Notes under the pieces: model-generated
Database searches by the model: none
What the model saw: the letters and a program-made list of their open reading frames with translations, nothing else
Told to the model about the DNA's origin: nothing
Made by a program: the position numbers and the translations under genes
From: Nitrososphaerota archaeon
Lineage (GTDB): Archaea > Thermoproteota > Nitrososphaeria > Nitrososphaerales > Nitrosopumilaceae
Reading direction: 5' to 3'
Assembly (NCBI GenBank): GCA_021323705.1
Contig: JAJPKL010000008.1
Location: forward strand, 1 to 64,000
DNA length: 64,000 nt
Shown: positions 27,393 through 38,850 of the stretch, one piece after another
Position numbering within the stretch: the first letter of the stretch is position 1
How the letters are laid out: each line of letters starts with the position of its first letter

Positions 27393-27516
27393 ATATTCTA
27401 TAATTGTCTACAATCACATATGGGATTAGATGGAAAAACGTCTAGTGAATGGCAGGAATCAAAGTAGACGGTGAAAACAAGTGGATTACCTTGATACAAA
27501 ATGCGAGTAAGAAAAC
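27393..27516 (+). pseudogene. Decayed transposase C-terminal fragment (same family as 36824-37060)
   Basis: Nucleotide similarity to 36932-37051 (catatgggattaga..ggaaaaac..gcaggaatcaa..aagtggatta..ttgatacaaaatgc); frame disrupted. Confidence 0.6.
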
Positions 27517-28322: not shown

Positions 28323-29012
28323 ATGATGCACCAATCAATAAAAAAGAACGAGTTTTTGACCTTTGTAGAAAGGGAAGCAAAGATACACATTGACAACTAC
28401 ATCGAAAGTGCAATCCACTTGGCAGAAGAGGTCCACTCCGGTGTCAAAAGGGAGGATGGCACTTCGCCGTTTCTTGAAACGCACATCTTTCCTGTTGCAA
28501 TGGACGTAATCCGACACTACAAGTGGGCAAACAAACCCATGACCACAATTCAGATCGTATCTGCAATACTACATGATGTCATGGAAGACAATGAACGAAT
28601 ATTGGATCTGCATGCTGCAAAGTCATACGGATTTGATGCATACTTTAGCCACCGATTTGGAGAATACGTATACAAGGTAGCCACAACGCTGAAAACAAAG
28701 CCGCTTGAGATTTATCCGGGGCATGATGAAAAAGAGCAGGAACTGGAAAGGTTTCGGGAATACTGTAACACTTTAACAAAATCAGATTATGATATCAAGA
28801 CAATCAAGCTTGCAGACAGACTAAATAACATGAGATTTATCTCAAAGGTTACAGGACATGAAAAAATAAACAGGTACATAAGAGAGGCTGAGGACTTTTA
28901 CATTGCATATACGATAATAGAGCCCAGAATGGACGACTTTTACCAAGAAATTCGAAAAGCCTATGAAGACTTGAGGCTTCTCTCAAAGGAAAAAACGACC
29001 ATTGCAGCCTAG
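28323..29012 (+). CDS. HD-domain phosphohydrolase, RelA/SpoT-HD (Mesh1-like)
   Basis: SAILHDVMEDN, KLADRLNNMRFI motifs. Confidence 0.8.
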   Translation: MMHQSIKKNEFLTFVEREAKIHIDNYIESAIHLAEEVHSGVKREDGTSPFLETHIFPVAMDVIRHYKWANKPMTTIQIVSAILHDVMEDNERILDLHAAKSYGFDAYFSHRFGEYVYKVATTLKTKPLEIYPGHDEKEQELERFREYCNTLTKSDYDIKTIKLADRLNNMRFISKVTGHEKINRYIREAEDFYIAYTIIEPRMDDFYQEIRKAYEDLRLLSKEKTTIAA

Positions 29013-36648: not shown

Positions 36649-36656
36649 CAAAATGA
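36649..36656. repeat. Left 8-bp target-site duplication CAAAATGA
   Basis: Identical to 37601-37608. Confidence 0.85.
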
Positions 36657-36706
36657 GGTTCTGTGTAGTTGTCGTCGGTTCTTATTCTTGTAAAAAAGCG
36701 TCGGGT
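36657..36706. repeat. Left terminal inverted repeat
   Basis: ggttctgtgtagttgtcgtcggttcttattcttgtaaaaaagcgtcgggt. Confidence 0.88.
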
Positions 36707-36823
36707 CGAACCTCTTAGAATCTAAAGGATACCAAAAATATCCATCAAAGACCAAGACTAGATCGCCTTGTATTCTATAATCCACAAGTCCTCTACATTC
36801 AGCATATCCATTTCAAAGGTGAC

Positions 36824-37060
36824 ATGAATAACAACAAAATGGAGAGATTGAATGGAGAGATTAGAGACAGGGAAAAGGTAATGCGAGGTTTAAAGAAAAT
36901 GGATACGCCAATTCTTACAGGTTATCAGTTATTCCACAATTACATTAGACCTCATATGGGATTAGAAGGTAAAACACCTTCTGAGGTTGCAGGAATCAAG
37001 ATAGAAGGCTACAACAAATGGATGACTTTGATTCAAAATGCTAGTAGGAAAGAAGCATGA
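36824..37060 (+). pseudogene. Transposase C-terminal remnant, IS6-like DDE family
   Basis: MNNNKMERLNGEIRDREKVMRGLKKMDTPILTGYQLFHNYIRPHMGLEGKTPSEVAGI, the E-containing end of a DDE catalytic domain; N-terminal two-thirds missing. Confidence 0.82.
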
Positions 37061-37185
37061 CTACTTACGAGTGTCCTTTGTGTAAAATCCAAATTGATAT
37101 TGACTATGATTATAAAATAAAATATCTATGGTGTGATGATTGTAGGATTAAAGTTACAAAATATTTGTCAGGATCATATTCTTAA
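37057..37185 (+). CDS. Small zinc-ribbon passenger protein (42 aa)
   Basis: MTTYECPLCKIQIDIDYDYKIKYLWCDDCRIKVTKYLSGSYS; start overlaps the transposase stop. Confidence 0.6.
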   Translation: MTTYECPLCKIQIDIDYDYKIKYLWCDDCRIKVTKYLSGSYS

Positions 37186-37211
37186 ACAAGAATCTTTAGA
37201 ATAATCTTGTA

Positions 37212-37544
37212 ATGGATTCTATCAATCTTATACGAAAGATAAAACGAGATTTAGAAAAAAAGAGAAGTAGAAATGTTAGCATACAAGCTAGTAAACGAAT
37301 GCAAGATACCTCATTCTTACACACTTCAAAAAATACAACAAAAACGCAACCTAAACGGTCACTGGACGACATAATTGCATCATTAGATAGATTAGAAAAA
37401 AAGGCAGAGCGAGATGATGCTTTCAAAAAAAATCTTGAAGTGGCAATTTCAAAGCAAAGGGAAGAATTAGATAATATTGCGGACAAAGTAGATAGTAATA
37501 CAGAGAAATTAGACCAATTAATTGATGATTGGAATAACCTTTGA
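37212..37544 (+). CDS. Coiled-coil passenger protein
   Basis: ORF inside the TIRs; heptad-like helix, LDRLEKKAERDDAFKKNLEVAISKQREELDNIADKVDSNTEKLDQLI. Confidence 0.6.
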   Translation: MDSINLIRKIKRDLEKKRSRNVSIQASKRMQDTSFLHTSKNTTKTQPKRSLDDIIASLDRLEKKAERDDAFKKNLEVAISKQREELDNIADKVDSNTEKLDQLIDDWNNL

Positions 37545-37550
37545 TATTTT

Positions 37551-37600
37551 ACCCGACGATTTTTCCCAATGATAAAAACCGACGACAACTACACAGAACC
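37551..37600. repeat. Right terminal inverted repeat
   Basis: acccgacgatttttcccaatgataaaaaccgacgacaactacacagaacc. Confidence 0.88.
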
Positions 37601-37608
37601 CAAAATGA
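37601..37608. repeat. Right 8-bp target-site duplication CAAAATGA
   Basis: Identical to 36649-36656. Confidence 0.85.
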
Positions 37609-37635
37609 TCAAATTTTTATCATATTGTACACAAA

Positions 37636-38850
37636 ATGAATTTTGTGCTAAAATACATCTTGTTGATCTTGCTTTTGGTTCCACTCCAGTCTTTTGCCTT
37701 TACTACTGGGCAGAATGCTACTCTTGTTCTAGGTCGAACCAATTTTAATGCTGGAGGGACAATACATGATTCCCCATCTGGTCATGCCTTGTATGTTCCA
37801 GAAGGATTAGCATTTGACAACTCTGGAAACCTCTGGGTCGTAGATACTGGTTTTAACCGTGTGCTCATGTTCGCACCTCCATTTACAAATGGCAAGAGTG
37901 CCACACTTGTAATTGGGCAGGAAAATCTTACTTCTACAGATCCTGCCTTGTCTGCAACGGGACTTGATCAACCATACGGTATGGCATTTGACAATGACGG
38001 TAACATATGGGTTGCCGACACCAACAACAATAGGATTGTGGAATACAGAACACCATTTGTCACAGGAGAAACTGCATCAGTTGTAATCGGCTCTCCTAGT
38101 TTTGACAAAGGGGTTTACCCAACCACTGCAAGCTCGCTTGCTGCGCCATATGGTATGGCGTTTGACACCTCTGGAAACCTCTGGGCAGTCGATTATTACG
38201 ATAACAGGATACTGGAATACAAACAGCCATTCAAAGATCATATGAACGCATCTCTTGTGATAGGACAGCCTGACTTTACAACCAATTCTGATGGCTCAAC
38301 TCCAAACAGAACGAACCTGCCAAGCTCAATAGCATTTGACAGTACTGGAAATCTGTGGGTGACTGATAGCCTAAACAACAGGGTATTAGAGTTTACAAAA
38401 CCGTTCTCCACTGACGAGTCTGCGTCATTAGTAATAGGGCAAAAGAACTTTACGGAAAATTTATCAGGAATAACAAACGACTCCCTCAACACTCCATATG
38501 GTATTACCTTTGACAAGTCAGGAAATCTTTGGATAACTGATGGAAACAATGCTAGAGTCTTGGAATATGTGCCGCCATTTAGTAATGGGATGGCAGCATC
38601 GCTTGTCCTGGGTCAGACAAATTTCGCTGGCATGCACATGGGAACATCATCTAGCATGCTTTCTGAGCCTTATGATGTGAAGATTGACGATAAAGGAAAC
38701 CTCTGGGTTGCAGACACTGACAACAATAGGGTGCTGGAATTTGCCACAACTGCTGTTCCAGAATTTGGGCCTATCACAAGTGCGGTATTTGCGTTATCAG
38801 TAGGAATACTTGTGATTGCTTCTGTACGTAGCAGACTGCGTTCGTTTTAA
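37636..38850 (+). CDS. Secreted NHL-type beta-propeller with PEFG-CTERM-type C-terminus
   Basis: Six LVIGQxxF...GLAFDNSGNLWVVDTGFNRVLMF-like repeats; VPEFGPITSAVFALSVGILVIASVRSRLRSF. Confidence 0.85.
   Translation: MNFVLKYILLILLLVPLQSFAFTTGQNATLVLGRTNFNAGGTIHDSPSGHALYVPEGLAFDNSGNLWVVDTGFNRVLMFAPPFTNGKSATLVIGQENLTSTDPALSATGLDQPYGMAFDNDGNIWVADTNNNRIVEYRTPFVTGETASVVIGSPSFDKGVYPTTASSLAAPYGMAFDTSGNLWAVDYYDNRILEYKQPFKDHMNASLVIGQPDFTTNSDGSTPNRTNLPSSIAFDSTGNLWVTDSLNNRVLEFTKPFSTDESASLVIGQKNFTENLSGITNDSLNTPYGITFDKSGNLWITDGNNARVLEYVPPFSNGMAASLVLGQTNFAGMHMGTSSSMLSEPYDVKIDDKGNLWVADTDNNRVLEFATTAVPEFGPITSAVFALSVGILVIASVRSRLRSF

Follow-up and report, generated by a model that had tools for sequence, protein, structure and literature searches.

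The window, the whole 64-kb stretch of DNA analysed here, comes from a genome of Ca. Nitrosotalea (genus inferred) and contains, between two divergent genes for exported-type proteins, a 944-bp unit with terminal inverted repeats (TIRs) at 36657-37600. With the target site duplications (TSDs) on its two sides the unit spans 36649-37608, and its parts are arranged as follows.

36649..36656, no strand: left TSD, CAAAATGA (direct sequence)
36657..36706, plus strand: left TIR, 50 bp, carrying the motif CGTCGG twice in direct orientation, at 36673-36678 and 36699-36704 (26 bp apart)
36707..36797, minus strand: 3' remnant of a leftward left-end gene (ECRGLVDYRIQGDLVLVFDGYFWYPLDSKRFDP...), its frame running on through the left TIR (phmmer)
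36793..36799, no strand: approximate point at which the deletion joins the left-end gene to the transposase, at a short shared ACATTCA-like stretch (comparison with L128, L125 and L124)
36779..37060, plus strand: C-terminal transposase remnant, codons ~281-373, with an ORF at 36824-37060 (tblastn)
37057..37185, plus strand: ORF for a 42-aa zinc ribbon; its start has a 4-nt overlap (ATGA) with the stop codon of the transposase
37212..37544, plus strand: 110-aa predicted coiled-coil ORF, an orphan without homologue and probable cargo
37551..37600, minus strand: right TIR, 50 bp (direct sequence)
37601..37608, no strand: right TSD, CAAAATGA (direct sequence)

The two TIRs are identical at 44 of 50 positions, with no mismatch in the outermost 24 bp, and both ends of the unit are directly bordered by a perfect copy of the 8-bp duplication (8/8 exact). 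A first-pass annotation of the window had recorded these repeats and duplications correctly, and its description of a mobile unit with IS6-like ends stands; GG and CTGT motifs are present in the ends. A TIR profile built in part from these two ends recovers each of them from the 64-kb window with an E-value of ~1.6e-14, and nothing else in the window is convincing (next match, E 0.024). The search for further copies in the same genome that the annotation had proposed was carried out, and the unit is single-copy there.

The intergenic position between two divergent genes for surface proteins, also noted at first pass, is borne out in that both neighbors encode proteins of exported type. In the congeners G019, G005, G029, G017, and others, these two genes adjoin each other in a matching arrangement and the unit is missing. 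Removal of the unit and one CAAAATGA leaves a region of 170 bp at this site, compared with 171 bp in three orthologues. The proposed comparison with empty sites succeeded in finding orthologous regions that lack the unit but not in finding a single conserved CAAAATGA; the congener loci are only ~70-75% identical and the 8-mer is not conserved among them, a divergence too great for the exact octamer to be demonstrable in their empty sites. The right TSD ends 27 bp ahead of the start codon of the right-hand gene, which encodes an NHL-repeat protein bearing a PEFG motif at its C-terminus. A TTTTTAT stretch immediately downstream of this TSD (window 37609-37636) is conserved in relatives and is likely the TATA box of that gene. 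That gene may have had its upstream promoter element replaced by the insertion.

Only the C-terminal part of the transposase remains, as had been claimed. The remnant aligns with codons 281-373 of the complete 373-aa transposase of element L047 at 86% identity (tblastn, E 3e-50). Complete transposases from nine relatives share invariant D203, D262, E302, and R309; the remnant retains the DDE glutamate and the arginine at +7 without either aspartate, a loss of two of the three catalytic residues. A second remnant of the same transposase type lies elsewhere in the window (27393-27511, plus strand); it is more decayed, covering codons 331-370 with a frameshift, and is accompanied only by a weak TIR-like match at 28932-28973.

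The other side of the unit contains a second gene fragment that is absent from the earlier description. The ~90 bp that directly follow the left TIR (~36707-36797), read on the minus strand and on through the TIR, encode ECRGLVDYRIQGDLVLVFDGYFWYPLDSKRFDPTLFYKNKNRRQLHRT, a peptide that resembles the C-terminus of a gene which, in complete elements, occupies the left end and points leftward (phmmer, 6e-9 for L128 and 1.5e-7 for L125/L067, with further left-end ORF matches in L203, L191, and L130). The homologous segment is a short peptide, with an E-value of 6e-9 if the TIR-encoded tail is included and 2e-5 without it. Between the points that are joined in the unit, these complete relatives have the left-end gene, additional cargo, a small regulator, and the N-terminal part of the transposase, and the junction at ~36793-36799 falls within a short stretch that is alike in both parent sequences. 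Because the tails of the left-end gene and the transposase are fused, the unit is a derivative, by internal deletion, of an element of roughly 2.6 kb. The missing length, ~1.7 kb, is an estimate from the geometry of L128, and no close parent with the 110-aa ORF among its cargo was found.

This junction changes the meaning of the TSD. The first-pass annotation had argued from the duplication around the whole unit that it inserted as a cargo-bearing, possibly trans-mobilised element. That conclusion does not follow, because a deletion after insertion preserves the same TSD, and the duplication was rejected as proof of insertion in the present form on the strength of the two fused gene tails. The unit is very probably a defective copy of a cargo-bearing archaeal IS6-like DDE transposon that was internally deleted after it had inserted; we infer both this order of events and the loss of autonomous mobility. 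Complete cargo-bearing elements with matching ends, the relatives that the annotation had suggested looking for, do exist in the genus: L124 (=L047; 3871 bp, TSD GCAAATGA), L125 (3035 bp), and L130 (3740 bp). It is unlikely that the deletion occurred elsewhere and that the 944-bp form then inserted at its present size as a non-autonomous element mobilised in trans. Such a history would account for the intact TIRs and TSD, and complete transposases related to the lost one are encoded in the same genome (on C1 and C14, 55.6% and 45.9% identical to the L047 transposase). It would also have a parallel in a congener, in which an 861-bp unit bounded by TIRs and a TSD (TCATAAAA) lacks a transposase (L070 3298-4158, G001:C158). 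However, no second copy of the deleted 944-bp form is present in its own genome or in 36 congeners, and the C1 locus, which has the nearest ends in the genome, adjoins a TIR only 34-35/50 identical to those of the unit. The TIRs of the L070 unit are of the same general kind, and it is a possible non-autonomous relative.

The two ORFs in the right half of the unit differ in their relationship to the transposase. The zinc ribbon retains all four of its cysteines, and its overlap with the transposase stop, as described at first pass, is confirmed and measures 4 nt. A zinc ribbon follows the transposase at ~20 Nitrosotalea loci, with overlap at most of those that have a readable junction; alignments show the 4-nt stop/start overlap (ATGA/TTGA) at seven loci, coordinates place it in L125 as well, and inspection of the sequences adds several more cases. 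The two genes are probably translationally coupled, and the zinc ribbon, earlier taken to be a passenger, is better described as a gene that is coupled to the transposase and typical of the Nitrosotalea elements. In the wider family just two of the 42 complete elements (L124 and L125, both from Nitrosotalea-type MAGs) carry it, so it is an accessory gene specific to that lineage; the same count led to rejection of the zinc ribbon as a gene general to the whole family. Its product is viewed as a putative accessory subunit or regulator of transposition. The designation of the coiled-coil ORF as a passenger stands in part: the 110-aa frame is open and may be true cargo, but searches of 37 genomes gave no homologue, and nothing in Pfam, NCBIfam, or PADLOC matches it convincingly.

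Open reading frames and an intact set of zinc-ribbon cysteines might also be expected if both ORFs had been domesticated and the unit were kept as a small host locus instead of a decaying transposon. This scenario is highly improbable given that the unit is missing from the orthologous locus of congeners, that the coiled-coil ORF lacks homologues, and that lone ends of transposons and tails of transposases occur frequently across the genus. Because such debris is common, the open frames perhaps reflect merely a recent deletion. Under the preferred reading of an internally deleted transposon, the layout of the parent, as reconstructed from complete relatives, would have been left TIR, leftward cargo with the small, Cys-rich gene of the left end among it, a leftward small DNA-binding regulator, the rightward transposase, the overlapping zinc-ribbon gene, right cargo, and right TIR. 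Its insertion between the two divergent genes would have duplicated CAAAATGA, and a subsequent deletion of ~1.7 kb would have taken the regulator, transposase codons 1 to ~281, and all but the tail of the left-end gene, leaving the ends, the transposase tail, the zinc ribbon, and one cargo ORF.

By itself, the gutted unit is an instance of ordinary decay, and its wider significance lies in the family that it exposes. A transposase profile search retrieved 80 loci, nearly all archaeal, and the surroundings of each were searched for inverted GG...CC ends flanked by an 8-bp direct repeat. The outcome is a set of 42 non-redundant TIR-bounded elements of 1970-5663 bp, again nearly all archaeal, built around homologous SWIM-zinc-ribbon-DDE transposases; the 42 include three Nitrosotalea-type elements found via the TIR profile. 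An exact direct 8-bp TSD flanks 41 of the 42, partly by selection, as the TSD was used in the search. When TIR pairs were chosen blind to the TSD, 8/8 duplications were seen in 27/50 cases versus 0/50 for an offset control, and shuffled loci reached the detection score in 0/42. No elements were found at ~1.3 kb, the length that a transposase with nothing but its ends should have, and the left arm ahead of the transposase measures 700-3932 bp across the 42. Hosts include Nitrosotalea, Nitrosopumilus, Nitrosarchaeum, Nitrososphaera, Nitrosocosmicus, Methanoperedens, Bathyarchaeota, and Thermoplasmata. In Pfam, the transposase SWIM finger scores 21.1 bits (cut-off 19.6); an IS1/IS1595-type zinc-binding domain reaches 25.4 bits, below its cut-off of 28. 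The complete L047 protein matches DDE_Tnp_IS240 with 54 bits (cut-off 27), and its best NCBIfam match, transpos_IS6, scores 110.8 bits, under the cut-off of 125. Among PDB sequences nothing matches the transposase profile, and the catalytic core is poorly modeled by AlphaFold (mean pLDDT 57.6).

In 34 of the 42 elements, the transposase is preceded by a leftward ORF of 45-85 aa whose start lies 75-165 bp away, compared with 2-6 of 37-42 in same-strand shifted windows and 1-10 of 42 on the opposite strand. These ORFs encode ribbon-helix-helix, AbrB/MazE-like, or zinc-ribbon proteins (by mostly weak Pfam matches and inspection), and unrelated DNA-binding folds therefore share one slot, from which they presumably control divergent promoters. 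The TIRs of the family, 40-50 bp in length, contain two direct copies of a motif ~26 bp apart. The motif is CGTCGG in the unit and CGGTTGA, CGGCACAT, or CGGGTCAT in other elements, and its two copies are more alike within an element than between elements (at least 8/10 positions in 29% versus 4%), a moderate signal that is not universal. The TSDs of the Nitrosotalea elements L001, L047, L074, L092, and L097 resemble TCRTTTTG (TCATTTTG, TCATTTGC, and, three times, TCGTTTTG), a hint of target preference. At three loci (L067 2252-5400 on G016:C134, L074 1264-1359, and L099 187-296), the ends of separate elements stand back to back with one shared 8-bp flank. The two flanks of the L067 (=L125) element are reverse complements of each other, CGATTAAA and TTTAATCG, an arrangement suggestive of an intramolecular replicative event or a nested insertion into a TSD.

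The non-transposase ORFs are mostly unrelated from one element to the next. Their identification, which covered mainly the largest ORFs, returned type IIG/I-like methylase or restriction proteins (L102, L161, L195), a D12 methylase (L155), an N4/N6 methylase with an Mrr-like domain (L172), GmrSD with HNH (L130, L163), a DUF3800 cargo ORF, and a proteasome-like hydrolase (L157, Pfam). In L124, a close complete relative of the unit, a 208-aa ORF resembles the phage-defence protein PD-T7-4 (E 3.5e-78). The genome that carries the unit also hosts a complete element, L102 (G000:C14:3722-8631; 4910 bp, TSD TTTATTGA, TIRs GGTTCTGTCGGGTTATCGAGACCTA), with an 890-aa Eco57I-like restriction-methylase gene as cargo. 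Proteasome-like proteins of Ntn-hydrolase type recur in or beside elements (L134 3701-4534, L157 3734-4543, L161 6266-6985, L125 6912-7853), with Pfam confirmation for L157 only. Elements of 2-6 kb that move restriction-modification, PD-T7-4, and GmrSD-type genes provide a concrete vehicle for the transfer of defence genes among archaea, in which small cargo transposons are poorly charted. Taken together, these comparisons favor, on balance, the view that the unit is a relic of undescribed, archaea-wide IS6-like transposons with exchangeable, often phage-defence cargo, a divergent regulator that faces the transposase and is exchangeable among RHH, AbrB, and zinc-ribbon types, and bipartite TIRs with a repeated motif that varies from lineage to lineage yet agrees between its two copies in many elements, as if it followed transposase specificity. 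The delimited elements suffice to test how IS6-like transposases handle cargo and the exchange of regulators.

IS6 members are 789-880 bp in length, with one ORF, 15-20-bp ends, and an 8-bp TSD, and the sole member named as having a passenger gene is ISDsp3 (Varani et al. 2021, PMC7986276); archaeal IS6 elements may fall outside the IS6 family (Harmer and Hall 2019, PMC6807381). Like IS6 elements (IS26, IS257, IS240, and the archaeal groups), the present family has an 8-bp TSD, exact in the unit and in 41/42 relatives. It further resembles them in a DDE + K/R catalytic domain, which passes the Pfam but not the NCBIfam cut-off, and in ends that start with GG and carry CTGT and CAA-type motifs, within TIRs of 40-50 bp. 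Unlike IS6 elements, with their 0.8-0.9 kb and 14-20-bp TIRs, its members are 2.0-5.7 kb in length and have bipartite TIRs of 40-50 bp; their transposase, with an N-terminal SWIM finger and zinc ribbon, is central and does not span the element, and they carry a divergent small regulator and multi-gene cargo. By size and single-ORF content, as read from the sequences, these are not ordinary IS6 members. The Clostridia IS6 clades h and i (PMC7986276) are described as having long transposases with an N-terminal zinc finger, a zinc-binding extension comparable to that of the present family, which is set apart from them, again by description, in being archaeal and cargo-bearing with a finger of SWIM type. 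Thaumarchaeal IS-like transposons, reported as abundant and typically of one or two genes in the portions considered of a survey by Krupovic et al. (2019, PMC6563490), share the host phylum and are likewise of DDE type, but multi-gene cargo elements of the present type are not delimited in those portions. Searches limited to openly accessible literature returned no description of these cargo elements; the family is apparently undescribed, and the unit is a dead representative of this new, cargo-bearing variant of IS6-like transposons. Similar in organization are the transporter ISs (tIS) of other IS families, which likewise are simple TIR-bounded elements that combine a transposase with passenger genes, but in the archaeal family cargo is the rule in a clade that extends over several phyla, and the divergent regulator occupies a fixed slot.
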